From: a virus | Length of the DNA: 28,673 nucleotides | Reading direction: 5' to 3' (one strand) | IMG/VR virus record: IMGVR_UViG_3300049216_000646 | Coordinates: 1-28,673 of that record | Part shown: piece by piece, positions 5,922 through 21,565 of the stretch | Numbering within the stretch: the first letter of the stretch is position 1 | Layout: each line of letters begins with the position of its first letter | Position numbers and translations under genes: made by a program | Notes under the pieces: model-generated | Databases searched by the model: none | What the model was told of the DNA's origin: nothing | What the model saw: only the letters and a program-made list of their open reading frames with translations

Positions 5922-7340
5922 TCAGGTCCACCCACGAGATGCAATAGGTTTTACCTCACGCCGCGCGGCCTTGGTGCTCATCTCGGAGCCGAATGTGCGG
6001 CCTCCATCTGCATACAGGCATAGGTACTGGAGCGCGTCGGCGATGTGGGACGAGGCGTTTTTGTCCGGCCTGTCGTCAGCCTGCCCTGTGCGCTTGACCC
6101 GATAACGATATCCGCCACGCAGCGCCCGCACGGTCTCGGGGCACGCCTTGGCGTCGATGAGCATCCGGGGTTTGCCGTCCACATAGCCGTTAAGAAACGC
6201 ATCCACCGCGGCGATCCGGGCGACGGTGGCGTTCGTGGCGGCCGGCACGACCCGGAACCCCTCAGCCCGCAGGATGTCGAACACGGTGCGCTCGTCGGTC
6301 TGAGCACGTTGTGCCCCCGCCGGGTCGCCAATCACGATGGCGCGGGTATTGGGGAACCGGGAAGCTAACAGGGGCTTAAGCCGCTCACGGATAAACCGCA
6401 GCACGCCCATGTCCTCGCTCACCGCCTCGGCAAGTACCAGCAACCTGCCACCTGGATATATCTGGCCAATCACAGCCGCCGGGGTGAGGCCGAAGTCGTG
6501 GCCGATGATAAGCGGGGTATCGAGCATGGATGATACATGGCGTAGCTCGCTCTTGGCGACATGGACATCGAGGTTGAATGAGGGGAACACCGGGCGGCCG
6601 GAGAGCGACTTGCCGAACTTGGCGTGGATGTACACGTCGATCCAGTCCTGGCTCTTACCCTCCATCAAGTTGCCGTAATAGTTCGCCGGCAGGTACTCGG
6701 TCCAGTCGGCCTCCTCACTGAGCCCGCTCGGCTGGAAGAACACCTCGGCATTGTTGGGCGGCTCAGATAGATACCCCTCCCAGAACGTATCCATGTCCGG
6801 TGGGTTAGACATCCCCCACAGGTGTTTGTTCTCCTCACCATCGTCGGTCACGCAGCCCACGCCGTTCTCCAGCTTGGACGGGAACCGCCCGAGCCGCCCT
6901 TGCAGCGCCTCGAAGATGTCCTGGTTGATCTCGCGGAACTCGTCGAGGATGCCGAACGATGCCTGCAATGAGAGAAGTTTCTTCACGTCGTCCGCGTCGT
7001 CGAGCCCGCGGAACATGATCTCGCACTCGACATCACCGAACCGCAACATGAACTTGCCGTAGGTCTTTTCATATTCACCGAACAGACCAGGCTTGTACCA
7101 CTTGAGCACGTCTGGGATGGAGGTATCGCGCAACTGCTCGCGGGTGTTGCGCACCCAGATGGCACGGGACCGGCGCACCCCGTCGTGGCACTTAGCCATC
7201 TTCGCTGCGTGATATGCGATCTTCATTATACCCGCCGTGGTCTTCGTTGAGCCGAGCGGCCCGACGATCAGCGAGATGAAGCTGTTGGACAACAGGAACG
7301 GTGTGACGCTCTTTGGCGGGTTATACTCAATTTTACTCAC
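5922..7340 (-). CDS. terL: Terminase large subunit (DNA packaging ATPase/nuclease)
   Basis: A 472-residue motor protein. The ATPase half has a Walker A-type loop GPLGSTKT (residues 27-34) and Walker B with catalytic Glu, FGILDEF (Asp133-Glu134). The C-terminal RNase H-like nuclease shows IIGHDFGLTP, the second acidic strand AIVIGDPAGAQ and the final SSHIADALQYL. Length and motifs match podoviral (T7/P22-like) large terminases. The start is GTG at 7340, with GGAG about 10 nt upstream. It lies downstream of a TerS-like gene and starts the head of the late operon. Confidence 0.95.
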   Translation of the reverse strand: MSKIEYNPPKSVTPFLLSNSFISLIVGPLGSTKTTAGIMKIAYHAAKMAKCHDGVRRSRAIWVRNTREQLRDTSIPDVLKWYKPGLFGEYEKTYGKFMLRFGDVECEIMFRGLDDADDVKKLLSLQASFGILDEFREINQDIFEALQGRLGRFPSKLENGVGCVTDDGEENKHLWGMSNPPDMDTFWEGYLSEPPNNAEVFFQPSGLSEEADWTEYLPANYYGNLMEGKSQDWIDVYIHAKFGKSLSGRPVFPSFNLDVHVAKSELRHVSSMLDTPLIIGHDFGLTPAAVIGQIYPGGRLLVLAEAVSEDMGVLRFIRERLKPLLASRFPNTRAIVIGDPAGAQRAQTDERTVFDILRAEGFRVVPAATNATVARIAAVDAFLNGYVDGKPRMLIDAKACPETVRALRGGYRYRVKRTGQADDRPDKNASSHIADALQYLCLYADGGRTFGSEMSTKAARREVKPIASRGWT

Positions 7341-7368
7341 CGCCCAGACACTCCAGGCGGCGAGGCGT

Positions 7369-7449
7369 TTACCTGCGCAGGAGAGCAGTCACCCAGCAGC
7401 AGATCGCAAACGCATCGAACATCAACCAAAATATCTGCTCGCCGCTCAT
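7369..7449 (-). CDS. Putative 26-residue membrane peptide
   Basis: ATG at 7449 with a GGAG Shine-Dalgarno about 9 nt upstream opens a 26-codon frame beginning MSGEQIFWLMFDAF and ending in a hydrophobic stretch AICCWVTALLRR, giving one possible transmembrane helix capped by basic residues. It fills most of the gap before the terminase start. Small single-TM peptides are common in phage lysis regions. Support is limited to the start context and composition. Confidence 0.35.
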   Translation of the reverse strand: MSGEQIFWLMFDAFAICCWVTALLRR

Positions 7450-7617
7450 GGTCCCTGCTCCGACTTGCGTGTGTTGAGAACACCATCATGCACCCGATCC
7501 ACCACGAGGGCAATCATTACGTTTACAGGTGAGGTTCGACTCTGGTGTGGGGGGCATCGACAACGGCGGAAACATGTCACGAGTTCCTGTGGGTTGATGG
7601 CGCCGGGGTGGCGATCG

Positions 7618-8457
7618 TCAGAGCGTGGTAAAGTGCCGGTTCCCGTGGATCGAGAACTCCGGCATCTTAAGGTCTTTGATACCCGCGGCCCCGGTGCGAT
7701 CCCGCTCTTTCCTTGCGGCGATGGCATCGGTGAGTTCCTGCGGCGAAATTTTTATGCGCGGCGTGTCGAGGGGTGGCGGGGCCGCGAGCTTATCAAACCC
7801 CGCCAGGATATCCTCCATGGAGATGTCGGCCGCGCTGGGTGTGATGGGTACTCCGGTATGCGACGAGCCTGCCGGCATGGGTGCCACTCCGGCATCGTCT
7901 TGCGGGTCGATGAGGATCGTTTCGTCCCGGCTGGCGAGGATATGCGTGGGTGCCTCGCCGAGATCACCCAATGCGTCCGGTGCCTGGTCGGGCAGGGCGA
8001 TGCCTTCAAGGGTGATGGTGGGCGATGGCGGGGTGGCGGGTGCTGCGCCAGGCCCGAGCGTCACCGTCACCTGGTTGGGTGTGGTAGCGCCTGGGTCGAA
8101 GTTGAACACGATGCTCGCGGTGTTAGCGACGTTCTGCGCTGGGGGTTTGAGCTTGTTGCGGCGATGGTCGAGGGCTTCGTATGCGGACTTCTTATCGCGC
8201 ACCTCGATAGACTTCATCGCGGCGACGTAGATGCTGTCCGTGATGTTGTCGATCTGGAGGTCGAGGATGGCGACGCGCTTGTCGATCCCATCGGTAGCGA
8301 GAGACTGCGCAACCGCGGCATCACGCAGCGTTTGCTCCAAAATGGTTGGGTCCAGGCCGTACTGGTGGGCGAGCAGGCGCAGGTTCGCATCCGCTGTGAT
8401 CTTGTCGATCAGGGCTTGGGGGGTTTGGGCCGGCGGAGGTGCCAGGGTTTGGGACAT
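7618..8457 (-). CDS. Terminase small subunit-like protein
   Basis: A 279-residue protein if it starts at the ATG at 8457 (MSQTLAPPPAQTPQALIDKI). A longer version would use TTG at 8499, but neither has a clear Shine-Dalgarno. Residues about 20-110 are helical (LRLLAHQYGLDPTILEQTLR looks like a helix-turn-helix), followed by a long Pro/Gly/Ala-rich linker and a helical C-terminus (PQELTDAIAARKERDR). It is first in the late operon, directly before terL, the usual place for a DNA-recognition subunit. Assignment is by position and the N-terminal HTH-like segment; sequence identity to known TerS families is not evident. Confidence 0.55.
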   Translation of the reverse strand: MSQTLAPPPAQTPQALIDKITADANLRLLAHQYGLDPTILEQTLRDAAVAQSLATDGIDKRVAILDLQIDNITDSIYVAAMKSIEVRDKKSAYEALDHRRNKLKPPAQNVANTASIVFNFDPGATTPNQVTVTLGPGAAPATPPSPTITLEGIALPDQAPDALGDLGEAPTHILASRDETILIDPQDDAGVAPMPAGSSHTGVPITPSAADISMEDILAGFDKLAAPPPLDTPRIKISPQELTDAIAARKERDRTGAAGIKDLKMPEFSIHGNRHFTTL

Positions 8458-8640: not shown

Positions 8641-8658
8641 GATTAACTGCGGTTAATC
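8641..8658. repeat. 18-bp palindrome, copy 1
   Basis: GATTAACTGCGGTTAATC, one mismatch in the inner arm. It lies 8 nt upstream of the -35 box of the rightward promoter at 8667, in the divergent control region. Confidence 0.8.
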
Positions 8659-8852: not shown

Positions 8853-9521
8853 ATGTCTAACGTTGCAAAAACGCCCCATGCCAATGCCATGGCGCAAGCC
8901 CCTGTTACTTATAACCCTGAAAGCTTTGTGATAGGCGTTGCCGGGGTTATCAAGGCTGACGCACAAGCGGGCTTGTCATTTGTGCAGGGAGTTGTGAAGC
9001 AGATTAAAGCTTGCCAGCTTCCAGCACTAAGCCCGGCCAGATATGACGCGGAATTATCTCCCGTGTTCAAGAAACTCATTGCGGATAAAACCGGGCTTTC
9101 TGAACAATCGGCGCGTATCTATCAGGCGGTGATTAAACCCATGGTCATTGCGCTGACCAATGGTTTCGTGCTGCCAGATGATGCGCGCTCTAAGAACGCT
9201 GCCGCCAAGGCTTGCGTGGCGTTTATCAGAACAAAAGGCTGGGGCACGACGCACGGCCGCAAAGCCCGTCAGCCCGGCGCAGGCGGCGCAGGAGGGGTAG
9301 GCGATGTCGGGGGCGGCGATGATAAAGACGCTGAGCCCGTCACGCTGCAAGATATCGCTGATTTATTGTTTGGCGATAATCCGGCCGCGCGTAATGCCTT
9401 TGTGTTGCTTGCTAAGAAACCCGAAGCTTTGGGCAAGCTGCTGATAGATGAGGCTGCAAAGCAAGCGCCCGTTGCTAAGCCTAGCGTGACGCCTCGCCGC
9501 TATAAGATGCTGTCCGCGTGA
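8853..9521 (+). CDS. Unrecognised 222-aa protein at the divergent control region
   Basis: ATG at 8853 with AAGGA about 9 nt upstream. The N-terminal half is helical (ESFVIGVAGVIKADAQAGLS, SPVFKKLIADKTGLSEQSAR); the LSEQSARIYQAVIKPMV part could be an HTH-like helix pair. A Gly-rich linker follows at about residues 138-155 (GAGGAGGVGDVGGGDD). The C-terminal part is helical with a basic end (TPRRYKM). No family is recognised. It is the first gene of the right arm, is isolated by a strong terminator, and has its own promoter with operator-like words. That is the place where a temperate phage often keeps a regulator, so a regulatory role is a reasonable guess but unproven. Confidence 0.75.
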   Translation: MSNVAKTPHANAMAQAPVTYNPESFVIGVAGVIKADAQAGLSFVQGVVKQIKACQLPALSPARYDAELSPVFKKLIADKTGLSEQSARIYQAVIKPMVIALTNGFVLPDDARSKNAAAKACVAFIRTKGWGTTHGRKARQPGAGGAGGVGDVGGGDDKDAEPVTLQDIADLLFGDNPAARNAFVLLAKKPEALGKLLIDEAAKQAPVAKPSVTPRRYKMLSA

Positions 9522-9553
9522 GGTAAACCCCCTCACACATACTAACCTACAAC

Positions 9554-9586
9554 AGCCCCCTAGGCGAAAGCCTAGGGGGCTTTCTT
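9554..9586 (+). terminator. Strong Rho-independent terminator
   Basis: GCCCCCTAGGC (9555-9565) and GCCTAGGGGGC (9570-9580) form an 11-bp perfect stem closed by a GAAA tetraloop, extended by an A-T pair, and followed by TTTCTT. It lies 33 nt after the stop of the 222-aa gene and should insulate it from the downstream region. Confidence 0.9.
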
Positions 9587-9602
9587 GTGTCTGTAGCTTG
9601 CC

Positions 9603-9733
<131 letters not shown>

Positions 9734-9850
9734 GACACAAAAGACACGGTAACACGGCGCGGCCATAAACCATTGAACGCGCTACATATTTTAGGGGGGT
9801 ATAACAAAACCGATGCGGGGTGTTAGGAGCACTGTACAAAAACGCTGCGC

Positions 9851-9868
9851 GATTAACCATGGTTAATC
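9851..9868. repeat. 18-bp palindrome, copy 2 (perfect)
   Basis: GATTAACCATGGTTAATC, a perfect palindrome. The central ATG (9859) opens an 18-codon frame that ends just before the hairpin at 9917; no ribosome binding site precedes it. Confidence 0.85.
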
Positions 9869-10484: not shown

Positions 10485-10943
10485 ATGAGTTCAAAGCTTC
10501 ACACACATTTGCAGAAGTCTGCGATACTGAATTTAATGCTGGAGGTTACGCAAATACCTGTTACGAAACTAGCTAAACTCTTAGGGACCGATCGAGCACA
10601 TCTGGAACGGTGCCGGTTTGGCCGTGAGGTCTTGCCGGACGATGTGCTGGCATGGTTACAGGCAATGGCTGAACTCGCCAGCCGCGCGCCTACGCTCGCC
10701 CCCTCGCCGGCCAAGATTACGCAAGAGCTATCGGCACGCTCGCCGCATACCGCGCAAGCAACCCCTCACACCTCGCCAGAGGATGCAGCCGAGGCGGAAT
10801 TTTTGGCGGCGTGTGCGGCGTTCTCGCAACCCGCACCGCCACCACCAAAGTACGATGGCGCGGAATTTGCGGAAGCGATGGTCCAGCGCACGCCCGAGCA
10901 AGAGGAATTACTCCAGAGCGTATTGGATGAGTTAAATGATTAA
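10485..10943 (+). CDS. Putative HTH DNA-binding protein with acidic tail
   Basis: A 152-residue protein; ATG at 10485 has GAGAGG seven nt upstream. Residues about 20-65 (IPVTKLAKLLGTDRAHLERC, then RFGREVLPDDVLAWLQAM) look like a Cro/CI-type helix-turn-helix. The same pattern of conserved positions is found in the 76-aa protein at 11143 (PxKxAxL...LxRxRxxRE...LAWL). The remainder is Ala/Pro-rich and ends in an acidic helix (TPEQEELLQSVLDELND), as in regulators with a partner-binding tail. It is the first gene after the repeat region and might bind the palindromes; that link is an inference. Confidence 0.65.
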   Translation: MSSKLHTHLQKSAILNLMLEVTQIPVTKLAKLLGTDRAHLERCRFGREVLPDDVLAWLQAMAELASRAPTLAPSPAKITQELSARSPHTAQATPHTSPEDAAEAEFLAACAAFSQPAPPPPKYDGAEFAEAMVQRTPEQEELLQSVLDELND

Positions 10944-11390: not shown

Positions 11391-11419
11391 TTGACATAAG
11401 CTAACGGATAAGTTATGTT
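11391..11419 (+). promoter_or_regulatory. Sigma70-type promoter with GCTAAC spacer element
   Basis: TTGACA (11391-11396), 17-nt spacer starting TAAGCTAAC, TATGTT (11414-11419). The 15-mer TTGACATAAGCTAAC is identical in the promoters at 14332 and 16551. It drives the genes from 11508. Confidence 0.75.
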
Positions 11420-12182: not shown

Positions 12183-12491
12183 ATGCAAGGACCAAACAAT
12201 AAGGACCGCGCACAATGGGCGCGTGATGCTGTGCATAGCTTTATGGGAGACACCGGCTTAAACCCACGCATCCGCGAAGACTACGAGTGCGGCGTGCGCG
12301 ACCTGCTCGCCGACCTGCGGCACCTGTGCGCCGAAGACGGGTTTGACTTTGAAGCGTTCGTCGAAGGGTCGGCCAGCGTGTTCAATGAGGAAGTGCAGGA
12401 GGAAGCCGAAGAGGCAGCCGAGATATCCGGCACGGGGCGCTGGGCGGTCTCTCACGTCAACCCGAAGCAGGAGATAACCCATGACCGATAA
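12183..12491 (+). CDS. Acidic protein of unknown function
   Basis: A 102-residue protein, ATG at 12183 with AGGAG seven nt upstream. It is rich in Asp and Glu (EDYECGVRDLLADLRHLCAED, then EEVQEEAEEAAEI) and predicted helical. Acidic small early proteins of phages often mimic DNA or bind host factors, but nothing specific can be claimed. Its end overlaps the start of the DUF6948-type gene by 11 nt, so the two are probably co-translated. Confidence 0.7.
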   Translation: MQGPNNKDRAQWARDAVHSFMGDTGLNPRIREDYECGVRDLLADLRHLCAEDGFDFEAFVEGSASVFNEEVQEEAEEAAEISGTGRWAVSHVNPKQEITHDR

Positions 12492-12774
12492 AAAACACCC
12501 GATGCTTGGTCGCCACTGTATTATCCGCACCTACTCGGCAGGCGTTCATATCGGCATCGTCAACTATGTCGAAGGCATGGAGGTTCACCTCACAGACGCG
12601 CTGCGTTTGTGGTCCTGGGAAGGCGGCGGCTTGTCGCTGTCCGCCATCGCCCAGGTCGGTATGAAAGGTGGTCGGGTCGATCGGACGCGCGAGGTTTACC
12701 TCACGAACGTTATCGAGATCATCCCGACAACTGAGGATGCGCGCAAGACATACGGGAGGTTCATAGAGAAATGA
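12481..12774 (+). CDS. DUF6948-type protein
   Basis: A 97-residue protein, ATG at 12481 preceded by GGAG. The segments RHCIIRTYSAGVHIGIVNYV, ALRLWSWEGGGLSLSAIA and EIIPTTEDARK match what I remember of DUF6948, a family found in phages: an 'R-T-Y-S-A-G-V-H' strand, a 'LW-x-W' turn, a Leu-Ser helix and a final 'EIIP-T-E-A' helix. Function is unknown. The stop overlaps the next start in ATGA. Confidence 0.75.
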   Translation: MTDKKHPMLGRHCIIRTYSAGVHIGIVNYVEGMEVHLTDALRLWSWEGGGLSLSAIAQVGMKGGRVDRTREVYLTNVIEIIPTTEDARKTYGRFIEK

Positions 12775-12995
12775 GTACGCGCGGCGCACATCACAACGAC
12801 CCGCCGAACGCCGGACACGGACACGGACACGGACACGGACACGGAGACGGAGACGGACACGGAGACGGACACGGACACGGAGACGCTCACCGCCTGCAAG
12901 AGCAGCAGGCGGTGAGCGTCGTGGCGCGAGCGTTCTTCCAGCGCCAGTGGATGGTCGAGCGTTTGACGAACACCCAACCAATTAACCACAGTTAA
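12771..12995 (+). CDS. His-Gly/Asp-Gly repeat protein
   Basis: A 74-residue protein starting in an ATGA overlap at 12771. Residues 15-38 are pure HG and DG dipeptides encoded by GGACAC and GGAGAC hexamers, then AHRLQEQQAVSVVARAFFQR and a C-terminus ending INHS whose TAA lies inside palindrome copy 7. A His-rich run could bind metal ions such as nickel or zinc, but the repeat may be a product of slippage alone. The repeat is followed by a perfect 16-bp hairpin within the coding sequence. Confidence 0.6.
   Translation: MSTRGAHHNDPPNAGHGHGHGHGHGDGDGHGDGHGHGDAHRLQEQQAVSVVARAFFQRQWMVERLTNTQPINHS
12813..12884. repeat. Twelve GGACAC/GGAGAC hexamers
   Basis: Twelve consecutive in-frame hexamers (eight GGACAC, four GGAGAC) encoding His-Gly and Asp-Gly. 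Variation between copies could come from slippage; the number of units would set the length of the HG stretch. Confidence 0.9.
12882..12920 (+). other. Perfect 16-bp hairpin inside a coding sequence
   Basis: GACGCTCACCGCCTGC (12882-12897) pairs exactly with GCAGGCGGTGAGCGTC (12905-12920) over a 7-nt loop. No T run follows, so it is not a standard terminator. It could slow translation or transcription of the HG-repeat gene, act as a processing site, or be a protein site. Confidence 0.8.
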
Positions 12996-16550: not shown

Positions 16551-16579
16551 TTGACATAAGCTAACACATTTGGTAATAT
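16551..16579 (+). promoter_or_regulatory. Sigma70-type promoter with GCTAAC spacer element
   Basis: TTGACA (16551-16556), 17-nt spacer starting TAAGCTAAC, TAATAT (16574-16579). It shares its first 15 bases with the promoters at 11391 and 14332. It drives the AAA+ operon. Confidence 0.7.
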
Positions 16580-16631: not shown

Positions 16632-16649
16632 GATTAACCGCAGTTAATC
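16632..16649. repeat. 18-bp palindrome, copy 11
   Basis: GATTAACCGCAGTTAATC, one mismatch; 38 nt before the ATG of the AAA+ gene, within its leader. Confidence 0.8.
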
Positions 16650-16687: not shown

Positions 16688-17683
16688 ATGAAAGCCTCAC
16701 AGCTTGCACAGACCATTCGCGCGTACATCGAGAACAAGAACACGCTCATCATTCAGTCCGAGCCGGGCGTGGGCAAGACCCAGATCGCCAGCGACGTGAC
16801 GAGGGAGATAGGGTTGCAACTCATTCATATCCATGTGCCGTCGAAGGGCGTGGAAGATTTCGGTCTGCCGACATTCAGCGCGGACAAACTCTACCACAGC
16901 TTCTCGCGCCCCGACTTCCTGCCCATCGAAGGGAGCGATTACCCCGACGAGGGCGTGATCCTGGCGGATGAATTGTCGCAGGCCGCCGGGGCTGAGCAGA
17001 AGGTTTGGGCGAACATCATCCAGGCCAAAGAGGTCCATGGACACAAGATCAAACCCGGCTGGTCGGTCATCGCCACCGGCAACCGCTCAACCGACCGGGC
17101 CGGTGCCAGCAAGCTGCTGAGCCACCTGGCCGGGCGCGGCACCATCGTCACGCTCGACCCGGACCTGGACGATTGGTGCAGGTACGCGCTGGCACATGGT
17201 GGACGGCCGGAGGTGGTGTCCTTCCTGCGGTTCAAGCCGGGGCTGCTGGTGGACTTCGACCCGAAGCGCGAGATCAATGCATCGCCGCGCCAGTGGTTGG
17301 AGCGCGTCTCGCCGATGCTAGGCAAGCTGTCGAAGGACATCGAGCATGAGGTGTTCCAGGGTAGCGTTGGCGAGGGGCCGGCGGCGGAGTTCGTGGGGTA
17401 TCTCGACCTGCTGCGCAAGCTGCCTAGCCCGGACGTTATCCTCACCCAGCCGGACAAGGCGGAGGTGCCGACCGAGGCGGCGGTGCGCTATGCCATCTGC
17501 GGGGCCATCGCGTACCGGGCGACCGAGACCAACATGGACCGGGTTCTCACCTATGCCCGCCGGCTGCCCGCCGAGTATGCGGTGCTGGTGATGCGTGATG
17601 CGCTGGGCCGGAACCCAGACCTGGCTGGCACCGCGGCGGCGATCGACTGGTTCTCCACCGATGGTGCGGAGATCATGCTCTGA
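16688..17683 (+). CDS. MoxR-type AAA+ ATPase
   Basis: A 331-residue ATPase. Walker A is SEPGVGKT (residues 24-31); Walker B is GVILADEL with Asp94-Glu95; a sensor-1 type strand WSVIATGNR follows, with the typical MoxR 'N-R' ending and a basic patch. ATG at 16688 has AGGAG eight nt upstream. In bacteria, MoxR ATPases work with VWA-domain partners as chaperones that mature or insert metal cofactors in other proteins. Here the partner candidate is the HExxH/VWA protein at 19657, about 2 kb downstream in the same block. The C-terminal third (DLDDWCRYALAHGGRPEVVS) is a helical lid with no clear relatives. Confidence 0.85.
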   Translation: MKASQLAQTIRAYIENKNTLIIQSEPGVGKTQIASDVTREIGLQLIHIHVPSKGVEDFGLPTFSADKLYHSFSRPDFLPIEGSDYPDEGVILADELSQAAGAEQKVWANIIQAKEVHGHKIKPGWSVIATGNRSTDRAGASKLLSHLAGRGTIVTLDPDLDDWCRYALAHGGRPEVVSFLRFKPGLLVDFDPKREINASPRQWLERVSPMLGKLSKDIEHEVFQGSVGEGPAAEFVGYLDLLRKLPSPDVILTQPDKAEVPTEAAVRYAICGAIAYRATETNMDRVLTYARRLPAEYAVLVMRDALGRNPDLAGTAAAIDWFSTDGAEIML

Positions 17684-17841
17684 TGGCCGGCCTGCGGGCG
17701 TATCAGAACTTGTTGCTGAGCCCGAAGATTGCCAAGGGTGCGCGTGACGCCATCCTCGACATCGCGACCAACGCGCAGAACGTGCGACCCCTCGATGTGT
17801 GGGAAGTCGGTGCGCTCTGCGAAGCAATTAACCATGGTTAA
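17683..17841 (+). CDS. Small protein of unknown function (52 aa)
   Basis: ATG at 17683 overlaps the AAA+ stop in TGATG. The product reads MAGLRAYQNLLLSPKIAKGA, then RDAILDIATNAQNVRPLD and VWEVGALCEAINHG. It is helical and has normal composition for this operon. The last codons and TAA lie inside palindrome copy 12. It may be a small adaptor of the ATPase, by position only. Confidence 0.65.
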   Translation: MAGLRAYQNLLLSPKIAKGARDAILDIATNAQNVRPLDVWEVGALCEAINHG

Positions 17842-17843
17842 TC
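17826..17843. repeat. 18-bp palindrome, copy 12
   Basis: AATTAACCATGGTTAATC; encodes the last residues and stop of the 52-aa gene. Its central ATG (17834) opens a 7-residue frame that stops just before the ATG at 17859. Confidence 0.85.
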
Positions 17844-17858
17844 ATAGGAGATTTTGAA

Positions 17859-18719
17859 ATGAGCCTATCAACCAAGACCATGCTCACCACCCTGAACATC
17901 TCTCAATGGTCAGCCCGCAAGCTCGACAAGCGGGAGACTGAGGCAGTCACCATCAAGCATGGCACCAGCGATAACGTGGCAAGGGTGAGCAAGACCATCC
18001 TCCCGAGCGCGGTGTCGCTGGAGGCGATCCACAAAAAGACCAACGACGTGCGGAAGTTCTTCTACGACAACACCCTGCCATGGCAGGCCGATGGCGTGGC
18101 GATCCTCAAGGCCACGCACTATATGAAGTTCGCAGAGGAGATGGGCAAACTCATCCGCGAGTGGGGAGGGCTGGTCAGCAACTTCCTGCATGACTATCCC
18201 ACCCTGCGCAGTCAAGCTGCCGTCGCCATGAACGGACTCTACAACCCGGACGACTACCCCGACGAGTACGACCTGGAGAAAAAATTCCAGATCGGCATCC
18301 GGTTCATGCCGATGCCGGATGCCGGGGACTGGCGCGTGGATATCGCCGACGAGGAGGTGGTGAAACTCCGCGACCACCTGGAGGAGCAAACCAAGGCCGG
18401 TGTGCAGGAGGCGATGAAGGAAGTCTGGAGCCGGCTCTCGCTCATCGTGGAACACGCTGCTGAAAAACTCTCGCAGCCTGACGCCATCTTCCGCAACTCG
18501 CTGGTGGAAAATGCCAGGAAGTTGTGCGAGGTTCTGCCGTCGCTCAACATCACGGATGATCCGAACCTGACCCGTATGGGTGAGGAGTTGAAGGCGAAGC
18601 TGGCCGATGCCGACCCGGACTTGTTGCGCACCCGGCCGACCGAGCGCGAGAAGGCGGCGCGCGACATGCAGGATATGATGTCGAAGATGGCGGGGTTCTT
18701 TGGGCCGGGAGGGAAGTAA
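17859..18719 (+). CDS. Third component of the AAA+/VWA cluster, unknown function (286 aa)
   Basis: ATG at 17859 with AGGAG upstream. A largely helical protein: residues 1-60 contain TTLNISQWSARKLDKRETEA and a VSKTILPSAVSLEAIHK region, the middle has a short aromatic stretch (QIGIRFMPMPDAGDWRVDIA), the rest is long helices ending in KAARDMQDMMSKMAGFFGPG. From memory, phages that carry a MoxR ATPase and a VWA protein often have a helical protein of this size between them (DUF3150-like), but I cannot confirm the family. It might bridge ATPase and VWA protein or be their substrate. Confidence 0.65.
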   Translation: MSLSTKTMLTTLNISQWSARKLDKRETEAVTIKHGTSDNVARVSKTILPSAVSLEAIHKKTNDVRKFFYDNTLPWQADGVAILKATHYMKFAEEMGKLIREWGGLVSNFLHDYPTLRSQAAVAMNGLYNPDDYPDEYDLEKKFQIGIRFMPMPDAGDWRVDIADEEVVKLRDHLEEQTKAGVQEAMKEVWSRLSLIVEHAAEKLSQPDAIFRNSLVENARKLCEVLPSLNITDDPNLTRMGEELKAKLADADPDLLRTRPTEREKAARDMQDMMSKMAGFFGPGGK

Positions 18720-18720
18720 G

Positions 18721-18936
18721 ATGGTTGAGAAAACCTTAAAGGACTACAACCTCTGCTGCCCAAACTGCGGCAAGGATAGCGACTTGCGGGTATCTATGAG
18801 CGTGCGGGCACGTATCACTGATAACGGCCCAGAAGAACTGGACACTGGTTGGGATTGGACTGACGACCACGCCGCATATTGTGGCGACTGTAATTGGTCT
18901 GGAGTGGCCTCACACCTTACACCGGGAGGGAAGTGA
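18721..18936 (+). CDS. Small zinc-ribbon protein
   Basis: A 71-residue protein; ATG at 18721 has GGGAGG about 8 nt upstream. Two Cys pairs, CPNC (Cys13, Cys16) and CGDC (Cys54, Cys57), form a classical zinc ribbon; the sequence between is acidic with Trp residues. Zinc ribbons of this size bind nucleic acids or other proteins. It lies inside the AAA+/VWA block and is followed by a 212-aa gene with a similar GGGAGG ribosome binding site. Confidence 0.8.
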   Translation: MVEKTLKDYNLCCPNCGKDSDLRVSMSVRARITDNGPEELDTGWDWTDDHAAYCGDCNWSGVASHLTPGGK

Positions 18937-18937
18937 T

Positions 18938-19576
18938 ATGACGAAGGAAGAATATAGTTCCGCGTTTATCGACCAACACCGTTACACCAACGTGGAGTTT
19001 GGTGATTGGTATCAGAGCACGCTCGAATGGTTCGAGGACATGCTCACCGATCACGGGCTCAACCTCAACAAATTTCGCCGAACCACAATCAAAGGCAAAA
19101 CCTGCACCGAATCCGAAATTTATTTCGAGGATCGGTATGGTTGGGACTGTTGGTTCGCCGGGTACTTCCTGTCGTCCCACCAGGCTTTGCGCGAGATCGG
19201 AGCCTCGCGCAAAGACTTCCCGATCACCTACAAACTTATGGAGAGGGGTGAAGTTATCGAGTTCAAGACGCTAGGCGACGACGAGCGCCGCAGAAGTTTG
19301 ACCGAGGTAAATGCGGAGGAGGCCGAGGGTGAGTTGGATGATCTGCCGGAGATGATCGTCAAACCATACAAGGCTCTATTCGCAAAGGAGCATGCTAAGT
19401 TGGAGGCATTGCTTCAAGACTGGTACGACGACGTGCGTTCCGAGTTCGCCAGCATCTTGGAGGATGAATACGATTACCTGACGAGTGATGAGGCGGTGAT
19501 CGAAAGCCTTGAAGGGAACGGGATCGTGGAGGAGCGCGAGGAGGATGAAGATGAGTCCTGCGAGTTCGCCGATTAA
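18938..19576 (+). CDS. Protein of unknown function with conserved phage motif (212 aa)
   Basis: ATG at 18938 with GGGAGG about 9 nt upstream. The segment TESEIYFEDRYGWDCWFAGY sits where, as I recall, a common phage family has 'F-S-G-F-W-S-Q-G-D-G-A-x-F-x-G-x-Y'. The C-terminal EYDYLTSDEAVIESLEGNGI also matches that family. The rest is highly acidic (EEREEDEDESCEFAD). Function of the family is unknown. The stop lies in palindrome copy 13. Confidence 0.65.
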   Translation: MTKEEYSSAFIDQHRYTNVEFGDWYQSTLEWFEDMLTDHGLNLNKFRRTTIKGKTCTESEIYFEDRYGWDCWFAGYFLSSHQALREIGASRKDFPITYKLMERGEVIEFKTLGDDERRRSLTEVNAEEAEGELDDLPEMIVKPYKALFAKEHAKLEALLQDWYDDVRSEFASILEDEYDYLTSDEAVIESLEGNGIVEEREEDEDESCEFAD

Positions 19577-19588
19577 CCACGGTTAATC
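19571..19588. repeat. 18-bp palindrome, copy 13
   Basis: GATTAACCACGGTTAATC; carries the TAA stop of the 212-aa gene and lies 11 nt upstream of the -35 box at 19600. It is the last clear copy. Confidence 0.85.
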
Positions 19589-19599
19589 AACACAATCAT

Positions 19600-19628
19600 T
19601 TGACGTAAGCTATTAGCAGTATTAAAAT
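19600..19628 (+). promoter_or_regulatory. Sigma70-type promoter
   Basis: TTGACG (19600-19605), 17-nt spacer TAAGCTATTAGC..., TAAAAT (19623-19628). The spacer is a variant of the GCTAAC element. It drives the VWA gene, which starts 29 nt downstream. Confidence 0.75.
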
Positions 19629-19656
19629 CTCTACAACATAACAGGAGCTAACCAAA

Positions 19657-20850
19657 ATGAGCAACCTCACCGCCGATCAGAAGATCGCCAAAGCCAGAGC
19701 AGCTATCATTCTCAGCCAAGCGTTCTTCGCTACCATCCTCTGCTCGCTGGAGATGGTCGAAGAAACGAGTAAGTCAAACCCCACCATGAAGGTGAACGGC
19801 GAGCGCATCGCGTGGAACCGAGAGTTCGTGGACAGTCTCTCTTTCGACGAGACCAGGTTCGTACTGTGCCACGAGGTGCTGCACTGTGTCTTGGAACATC
19901 CGTTCCGGCTCAAGGGCCGCAAACACAAGCTGTTCAACATCGCTGGGGATTACATCATCAACGACATTCTCACCCAGGAAAAGATTGGCACCATGCCGAA
20001 GGGCGGCTGCTACGATCCCGCACTCGTCGCCGCCGGCAAATGCACGACGGACGGCGTGTATAACATCCTCGACAAGCTGGATGATGGCAACGATGATGGG
20101 AACAACGAAGGCGAGGGCGGGGGCTCGGGCGGCTCGGGCAACCCCCACAACCCGAACCAGCGCGCCCTCGACGAGTGCGAACCCGAGGGATCACCTCAGA
20201 GTTCCGCGGCGGAGGAGGCTGCAAAGTCCAAGATGAAAGTGTTGGCCGGTCAGGCAGCGCAGGCTGCGAAGATGTGCGGTCAGCTTGGGGCGAACATGGA
20301 GCGTATCCTTAGCAGCGTCATGCAGCCGGTGGTGGATTGGCGCGCGGTGTTGCAGGACTTCATGCAGACCCGCTCGAAGGACGAGGTGAGTTTCCTCAAG
20401 CCGAACCGCAGGTTCCTGGCGCATGACATCTACTTGCCGTCGCGGACTGGCGAGCGGCTGGGTAAGATCGGCGTGGCCGTGGACTGCTCAGGCTCCGTCA
20501 ATGATAAAGAGATCGCGGAGTTTGCAGCGGAGATCATCGACATCAAGGCCAGGCTCGCGCCATCCGAGATGCATGTCGTGTACTTTCACCATGAGGTGAG
20601 CAAGCATGACATCTTCTCGCAGGATGACGACCTGGACATCAAGCCGAACGGGACCGGCGGCACGGCGTTCTCGCCGATCTTCCGTGCCCTGGAGCCTTAC
20701 GCTGGGGAGCTAGACGCGGTGGTCGTGCTGACCGATCTCTGCTGCTTGGACTTCGGGCCGGAGCCGGAGTACCCTGTGTTGTGGGTATCCAACGCCTACG
20801 ACCAAGCCCCGTGGGGTGAGATCGTGATGATGAAGCCAGGGAAGGTGTGA
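19657..20850 (+). CDS. HExxH metallopeptidase-like protein with VWA domain
   Basis: A 397-residue protein; ATG at 19657 has AGGAG about 10 nt upstream. The N-terminal domain has HEVLHCVLEH (His72, Glu73, His76, His81), a zinc metallopeptidase-type motif. A Gly/Asn/Asp-rich linker follows (about residues 146-170). The C-terminal VWA domain has the MIDAS loop DCSGS (Asp276, Ser278, Ser280), Thr336 in GTGGTAF, and VVVLTDLC. This is the architecture of DUF2201-type proteins, which pair with MoxR AAA+ ATPases. With the ATPase at 16688 it should form a chaperone or processing machine; the target is unknown. Confidence 0.85.
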   Translation: MSNLTADQKIAKARAAIILSQAFFATILCSLEMVEETSKSNPTMKVNGERIAWNREFVDSLSFDETRFVLCHEVLHCVLEHPFRLKGRKHKLFNIAGDYIINDILTQEKIGTMPKGGCYDPALVAAGKCTTDGVYNILDKLDDGNDDGNNEGEGGGSGGSGNPHNPNQRALDECEPEGSPQSSAAEEAAKSKMKVLAGQAAQAAKMCGQLGANMERILSSVMQPVVDWRAVLQDFMQTRSKDEVSFLKPNRRFLAHDIYLPSRTGERLGKIGVAVDCSGSVNDKEIAEFAAEIIDIKARLAPSEMHVVYFHHEVSKHDIFSQDDDLDIKPNGTGGTAFSPIFRALEPYAGELDAVVVLTDLCCLDFGPEPEYPVLWVSNAYDQAPWGEIVMMKPGKV

Positions 20851-21206
20851 TGGCGATGTCGGGCTTGAGCGCGAGCGAAATCGCAAAGTTCCGCACAGCC
20901 TGGCGCAGCTTCGTGGCGATAGGTGGGGTACGTCGGATGGCACAGTACATCGCCGCCGACATCGCCGAGCACGGTCCTATGGTGGTCGGGGTAACCGAGC
21001 CGGGGGGCCGGTGGCAACTCCCGCCTCGGGCCGCTGACGACTACGGGGAGCGGGACCGCATCGCTCGCGAGGTGGACCTGCGAGCAGCCGCTAAGCTGGC
21101 GCTGTACGTGGAGGGGTTCTTCGCAGACCCGACAGAGCGCCGGTGGCAATGGGCGGAGATTGCCGGCGATGACATAGTGCTGGCGTGCTACGCGCTAACA
21201 AGCTAG
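20850..21206 (+). CDS. Protein of unknown function (118 aa)
   Basis: ATG at 20850 overlaps the VWA stop in TGATG; ATG at 20856 is an alternative with a better spaced GGGAAGG. The protein is helical (ASEIAKFRTAWRSFVAIGGV, RRMAQYIAADIAEHGP) with a C-terminal helix around AAAKLALYVEGFFADP. It is co-translated with the VWA protein and closes the operon. Function unknown; inverted repeats begin inside its last codons. Confidence 0.65.
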   Translation: MAMSGLSASEIAKFRTAWRSFVAIGGVRRMAQYIAADIAEHGPMVVGVTEPGGRWQLPPRAADDYGERDRIAREVDLRAAAKLALYVEGFFADPTERRWQWAEIAGDDIVLACYALTS

Positions 21207-21370: not shown

Positions 21371-21565
21371 GTGAACAAGATGAAGAAACGTCGAGAGCTT
21401 ATCGAGCAGGCCAGACAACTAGGCTACGAGCCGGGCCTGACCGCCAGCGGGCACCTGCGGTTCACCCACCCCCTCACCCGCCGCGTGGTGACGTGCAGCA
21501 CCAACACGGGCAAGAGAGCCACCCAGAACGCGCTCAGCGACCTGCGCCGGTACGCCCGCACATGA
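21371..21565 (+). CDS. HicA-like small protein
   Basis: A 64-residue basic protein, GTG start at 21371 with GGAGG five nt upstream. It has the look of the HicA/YcfA fold: GLTASGHLRFTHPLTRRVVT followed by NALSDLRRYART. His27 could be the catalytic residue of an mRNA interferase. No HicB-like antitoxin gene lies next to it, so it may be an unpaired relative; such solo proteins are common in phages. Its stop overlaps the polymerase start in ATGA. Confidence 0.55.
   Translation: MNKMKKRRELIEQARQLGYEPGLTASGHLRFTHPLTRRVVTCSTNTGKRATQNALSDLRRYART

Follow-up and report, generated by a model that had tools for sequence, protein, structure and literature searches.

A virus record of IMG/VR with a length of 28,673 bases, the whole of which is called the window here, encodes what is likely the core of a three-subunit, ATP-driven protein-remodelling machine of mobile elements. 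The three proteins are a MoxR-type AAA+ ATPase, a protein of the DUF3150 group and a protein that combines a HExxH domain with a VWA domain, and their genes lie in a block of seven plus-strand genes at 16688-21206. The three very likely belong to one machine because they are found as a set across scores of viruses and dozens of bacterial plasmids. The pair of MoxR and VWA proteins is itself already known in phages; what is new is the constant third partner, DUF3150. We regard the trio as a new, DUF3150-type variant of the MoxR-VWA systems. The evidence for it as a unit is strong and its mechanism can reasonably be inferred.

The window carries genes for a portal, a terminase and an endolysin on its minus strand and genes for a polymerase, an exonuclease, a DHH phosphoesterase and a tyrosine integrase on its plus strand. 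This gene content points to a temperate tailed phage, either complete or as a fragment. A first-pass annotation, made from the sequence alone, had described the seven-gene block with its MoxR ATPase and its HExxH/VWA protein. The block was recovered, with reading frames at or near the same positions and with family matches beyond chance.

Linkage and co-evolution of the trio

A scan of viral contigs with an alignment of the DUF3150 protein yielded 219 loci. The best 80 of them and five loci found via the VWA protein were analysed with hidden Markov models built in this analysis. The complete trio was present in 69 of these 85 viral loci; as nearly all of them were selected by DUF3150, this count gives how often the pair accompanies DUF3150 and not the reverse. 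In the other 16 loci, the expected place of the missing gene is past the sequence end or no more than 0.7 kb away from it, and none of the 85 contradicted the linkage. Scans of the viral contigs with the MoxR protein or with the DUF3150 protein alone retrieved no relatives.

The genes were arranged as DUF3150-MoxR-VWA in 56 trios, as MoxR-VWA-DUF3150 in nine and as MoxR-DUF3150-VWA, the order of the window, in four. The latter was also seen in a Planktothrix phage and on plasmids. Thus, a search for the same gene order in other phages, as proposed in the first-pass annotation, confirmed that the genes are kept together but not that their order is fixed. In the Planktothrix phage, a gene labelled anti-CRISPR AcrVA2 adjoins the trio. 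In aquatic viruses, the trio is regularly followed by two further families of unstudied function, with approx. 318 and 338 amino acids (54 and 33 of the 85 loci, e.g. locus L003 at 5933-8027), which are absent from the window.

The trio operon also occurs on large plasmids of Cupriavidus, Burkholderia, Paraburkholderia, Variovorax and Rhodovastum, on approx. 40 plasmids that mostly belong to Burkholderiales. PRTRC and type IV secretion genes were found near it on several of them. The VWA gene was present in 41 of 42 plasmid records with DUF3150, nearly always at a distance of at most about 100 nucleotides, and MoxR was located directly upstream in most plasmid regions read. The record without a VWA partner, from Manganitrophus, contains a distant DUF3150 near an AAA ATPase. 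The VWA protein was also found on at least 70 plasmids without a DUF3150 match, with MoxR beside VWA in both of the two that were read. Plasmid typing classified 16 of the 42 records as conjugative and 8 as mobilizable. A scan of genomes with the DUF3150 alignment led to one 7-kb contig of a metagenome-assembled genome, which also carries a VWA gene. The DUF3150 protein was found in none of the 198 other genomes of the same phylum, in a scan with one pattern that would miss the plasmid type and so does not show absence from chromosomes.

Co-evolution was assessed with distance matrices of 30 non-redundant trios and 2000 permutations. The correlation was r = 0.90 for MoxR and DUF3150, 0.95 for MoxR and VWA and 0.91 for DUF3150 and VWA, values that none of the permutations reached. 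Shared ancestry is enough to produce such a correlation in genes that are passed on as a unit, and this joint transmission is what is claimed here. In a tree of the concatenated proteins, the window grouped with the plasmid trios, the Planktothrix-phage trio and two viral trios (L020 and L023). The gene order changes between clades with the linkage kept, and one trio (L029) is nested among trios of another order.

The MoxR ATPase and the HExxH/VWA protein

The MoxR protein (331 amino acids, 16688-17683) matched the PHROG ATPase family phrog_1297, the type of N4 gp24, over nearly its full length with an E value of 7e-68. It contains Walker A, Walker B, sensor 1, an arginine finger and sensor 2. 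Walker A has the sequence SEPGVGKT (residues 24-31, 16757-16780). Among 87 homologues, G27, G29, K30 and S/T31 of Walker A, D94 of Walker B, N132 of sensor 1 as well as R150 and R201 were invariant or nearly so. Exceptions were a change of the Walker B Glu to Asp in 12 proteins and a few changes at P200. The best solved relative of the MoxR profile was the AAA domain of midasin (E 4e-31). Relatives were detected by tblastn in 768 phage records, many of them N4-like.

The HExxH/VWA protein (397 amino acids, 19657-20850) matched phrog_1314, the type of N4 gp25, with an E value of 3.5e-95, again nearly over its full length. In Pfam, it matched DUF2201_N, a putative metallopeptidase family (E 1.1e-44), and the VWA-like DUF2201 (E 1.7e-24). 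A tblastn search placed relatives of it in 403 phage records, including many from N4-like phages, with matches annotated as N4 gp25-like. The PHROG name of phrog_1314, 'HNH endonuclease', looks like a misnomer since no HNH match was obtained and Pfam gives DUF2201. In one viral locus (L020), HNH genes sit inside the trio, which may explain the name.

Two motifs characterise this protein. The metal-site motif HEVLH (19870-19884) provides H72, E73 and H76, and the motif DCSGS (20482-20496) provides D276, S278 and S280 of a metal ion-dependent adhesion site (MIDAS) that is completed by T336 and D360. All five MIDAS residues were kept in 79 of 79 VWA proteins and the HExxH motif in 75 of 79. In the window protein and in every viral member of this set, HExxH, H81, N94, D98 and N102 were intact. 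HExxH, N94, D98 and N102 were replaced together in three proteins from Paraburkholderia plasmids (L018, L102 and L103), in which MIDAS and the operon stay intact, and the same site was partly altered in the protein of a Variovorax plasmid. The three Paraburkholderia proteins are natural versions without the protease-like site. HExxH, N94, D98 and N102 can thus be read as one putative metal site that is kept by the viral members and appears dispensable in some plasmid members. Where it is lost, the MIDAS grip and the pull of the ATPase would remain. The conservation of the Walker and HExxH residues and the co-occurrence of the genes, both suggested as checks by the first-pass annotation, support its reading of MoxR and VWA as a chaperone pair.

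The predicted structure of the VWA protein reached a predicted local distance difference test score (pLDDT) of 81 and a predicted template modelling score (pTM) of 0.60. It consists of an N-terminal metallopeptidase-like part, a disordered linker at residues 147-181 and the VWA domain. The nearest match of the N-terminal part was a weak one to selecase, a minimal metallopeptidase (4qhi chains, Foldseek probability 0.87-0.99, E 0.013-0.06). The top Foldseek match of the model was MDN1-MIDAS/UBL, in which the MIDAS of midasin is in complex with the ubiquitin-like domain of a client (E 3e-3, probability 0.99). The VWA fold was confirmed by many chains at Z 11-13 with a root-mean-square deviation of about 3 over approx. 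130 residues.

The DUF3150-type third subunit

The third subunit (286 amino acids, 17859-18719) gave no match of its own to Pfam including DUF3150 (PF11348). The DUF3150 model matched five of seven aligned relatives (best E 1.7e-4), and a plasmid relative with 33% identity and a phage relative with 28.5% identity are called DUF3150 by NCBI. By this similarity to its relatives, the protein is provisionally assigned to the DUF3150 group. Its AlphaFold2 model (mean pLDDT 87, pTM 0.80) combines a small alpha/beta part at the N-terminus with a helical bundle at the C-terminus. Foldseek returned generic helical bundles only (best E 0.19) and no fold relation is claimed. The term DUF3150 was found in none of the 5.39 million papers searched.

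The first-pass annotation had listed this protein among uncharacterised partners of the pair. It proved to be a conserved part of the machine, but the other small genes of the block did not.

Accessory genes

An open reading frame (ORF) of 52 amino acids (p52, 17683-17841), a zinc-ribbon-like ORF with 71 amino acids from its ATG and the pattern CPNC...CGDC (18721-18936) and an ORF of 118 amino acids (p118, 20850-21206) had no relatives beside the nearest trios. The acidic protein p212 (212 amino acids, 18938-19576) had a single weak relative downstream of the trio in locus L021 (27% identity, E 1e-5). In relatives of the trio, other small genes or HNH genes lie between the members. The four ORFs are best seen as passengers. 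Stop and start codons overlap as TGATG both between MoxR and p52 and between the VWA gene and p118.

Position and regulatory sites

The trio is located directly upstream of the DNA polymerase gene and on the strand opposite to the structural genes. The same order of trio, polymerase and exonuclease was found in three viral loci (L003, L004 and L006), and a polymerase lies downstream of the trio in 18 of the 49 viral loci having at least 3 kb of downstream sequence. Because of its place in the early plus-strand arm, upstream of the polymerase, the trio most likely acts early. Between the block and the polymerase gene, directly before the latter, a HicA-like ORF of 64 amino acids was noted at 21371-21565, with a Pfam E value of 0.02 that is under the cut-off.

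The block had been credited with its own promoters. Promoter-like sites are indeed present before MoxR (TTGACA-17-TAATAT, 16551-16579) and before the VWA gene (TTGACG-17-TAAAAT, 19600-19628), both on the plus strand. However, the number of such sites in the block region shows no excess over chance, with four found and 3.8 expected, and the sites and the palindromes described below are phage-wide. A 15-base context of the -35 element, TTGACATAAGCTAAC, occurs on the plus strand of the early arm at 11391, 14332, 16551 and 19600, in three exact copies and one with three changes.

The palindrome ATTAACCNNNGTTAAT is present in 13 copies with at most one mismatch between 8642 and 19587 of the window, which corresponds to 26 strand matches compared with 0.11 expected. 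The copies start at 8642, 9852, 10455, 11478, 11753, 12155, 12981, 13141, 14396, 15725, 16633, 17827 and 19572. Each is followed by a C, and most lie between the stop of one gene and the ribosome-binding site of the next. The operator-like copies at the trio are ATTAACCGCAGTTAAT (16633-16648), ATTAACCATGGTTAAT before the DUF3150 gene (17827-17842) and ATTAACCACGGTTAAT before the VWA gene (19572-19587). No copy of the core palindrome was found in the other trio loci examined. The 13 palindromes look like a phage-wide operator set. The block is probably part of a phage-wide early regulon, as it shares the -35 context and holds three of the 13 copies. A protein of 152 amino acids (10485-10943) with a palindrome copy directly upstream is helix-turn-helix-like by eye, with no Pfam match, and is a candidate regulator of the 13 sites. 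Runs of short repeats were also noted in the window at 9363-9860 and 12457-12990; their minus-strand reading gives poly-TH and SVSVSV...

Comparison with known systems

Midasin grips its client with its MIDAS, and its AAA ring pulls. It is the nearest solved structure for both the AAA and the VWA/MIDAS domains of the trio. Midasin (Rea1) carries its six AAA domains in a single chain of almost 5000 residues, whereas the trio consists of separate proteins and has a HExxH domain and DUF3150 in addition. RavA-ViaA, CbbQ-CbbO and NorQ-NorD follow the same two-protein MoxR/VWA chaperone logic, but they serve bacterial housekeeping clients and, to our knowledge, have neither DUF2201_N nor DUF3150.

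Among phages, gp24 and gp25 of N4 are core genes of Schitoviridae with no function assigned, and gp25 has a vWFA domain (PMC4193335, PMC7650795). They belong to the same two families as the window proteins, phrog_1297 and phrog_1314, and their genes likewise share a strand in the replication arm, where they lie next to or close to each other. They differ in that no DUF3150 was recognised in the Schitoviridae record examined or by tblastn of cultured phages. The window proteins are only approx. 26-31% identical to them and, unlike N4-like phages, the window represents a temperate phage with an integrase. In the Acinetobacter phage Presley, one gene for 174 amino acids separates the members of the pair, and a DNA helicase follows.

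Kaur et al. (2020) described four MoxR-vWA ternary systems whose third component is VMAP, iSTAND, FtsH or a beta-propeller (PMC7159879). The trio resembles them in having MoxR, vWA and one constant third protein. However, DUF3150 is none of their four third components, the HExxH domain is fused to vWA here, and no effector domains were seen. Their systems occur mainly in multicellular bacteria, the trio on phages and plasmids. The motifs WxhapG and PsWRxa of VMAP-type MoxR proteins (PMC7159879) are absent, as 23 residues precede Walker A in the window protein and none of them is a tryptophan.

Discussion

A grip-and-pull mechanism is proposed for the trio because midasin is the nearest solved relative of two separate subunits, by the AAA profile and by the VWA model. 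The MoxR protein would form a hexameric AAA+ ring. The VWA protein would capture a client via its MIDAS metal site and dock it on the ring, and DUF3150 would be a dedicated third subunit, probably an adaptor or the part being remodelled. By analogy with midasin, RavA-ViaA or CbbQ-CbbO, ATP cycles would then pull the client or release it altered. The HExxH domain would contribute a further metal site, which in viral members may serve to cut the client and in some plasmid members seems dispensable. The trio would most likely act early, and its target would be a phage replication complex or a protein of the host and not the virion.

Several points weigh against this interpretation. Ring formation and binding by MIDAS are carried over from the protein families, the early timing has position as its sole basis, and the generic helical bundles matched by the DUF3150 model do not define a role for this subunit. 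On a Simplicispira plasmid, the MoxR gene is approx. 3.6 kb away from the other two. Only three phage records contained DUF3150 relatives by tblastn, compared with 768 for MoxR and 403 for VWA. Hundreds of phages thus have the pair but no recognisable DUF3150, and DUF3150 is therefore not universally required.

The trio could instead be an ATP-dependent metalloprotease. MIDAS and DUF3150 would then hold the client for unfolding by the MoxR ring and for cleavage by the HExxH domain of the same VWA protein, a design that resembles FtsH or Lon except that the adaptor carries the peptidase. We consider this possible, though clearly the less probable reading. The metallopeptidase domain match in Pfam (E 1e-44) and the intact site of all viral members, with the general-base Glu, H81, N94, D98 and N102, argue for it, and the selecase-like N-terminal part of the model would fit. 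However, this site is lost as a unit in the three Paraburkholderia proteins and altered in the Variovorax protein, which keep MIDAS, MoxR and DUF3150, and proteolysis is therefore not the common function. We know of no measured activity of DUF2201_N. A part of a viral cobaltochelatase, joining the CobN of the host for cobalamin synthesis, is very improbable. Similar AAA+/vWA pairs, found in cyanophages and in tailed viruses of haloarchaea, have been read as CobS/CobT (PMC8651126, PMC9503304) and share the general architecture. Yet the window proteins did not match the NCBIfam models of CobS or CobT at E values up to 0.1, and the MoxR protein of a marine trio scored 13 bits against CobS, far below the cut-off of 559. 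Moreover, a HExxH domain, its site conserved, makes up the N-terminal half of the VWA protein. The partner that constantly accompanies the pair is DUF3150 and not CobN, which was not seen in the window. A specific role in cofactor insertion, which the first-pass annotation mentioned for bacterial pairs, found no support.

A chaperone for virion or tail assembly is hardly more plausible. In the archaeal virus ATV, the MoxR protein p618 and the VWA protein p892 interact and were assigned to extracellular tail development, the only virus pair of this kind found with experiments; no HExxH domain or DUF3150 is described for it in the review (PMC4124505). In the window, the trio belongs to the replication arm, with portal, terminase and endolysin encoded on the other strand, and the same trio occurs on plasmids, which make no virions. 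As a special case of the remodelling machine, the trio might serve in counter-defence or host takeover and take apart an immune or transcription complex of the host shortly after the DNA has entered. Such a role would account for its presence in both phages and conjugative plasmids. It agrees with the early-arm location and with the conjugative and mobilizable plasmids, several with adjoining type IV secretion genes. Known defence families (PADLOC) gave no full-length match, only P-loop fragments at E 1.7e-4 or worse, no linked defence locus was seen, and the observations fit the general remodelling reading equally. We regard this role as rather unlikely. Similarly speculative is the idea that the trio represents a fifth kind of MoxR-VWA ternary system, with DUF3150 and a metallopeptidase-like domain: a 'split midasin' with its own protease that dismantles a host defence or transcription complex after entry of phages and large plasmids.

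In the N4-like phage family, the MoxR/VWA pair is core, and no function was given for it when it was listed in 2014 and 2020. Environmental surveys are counting related viral pairs among the vitamin B12 genes. The constant third partner, the gene unit shared with plasmids and the list of residues to be mutated make the question of function testable, and they indicate which parts matter: MIDAS is never lost, and the protease-like site sometimes is.

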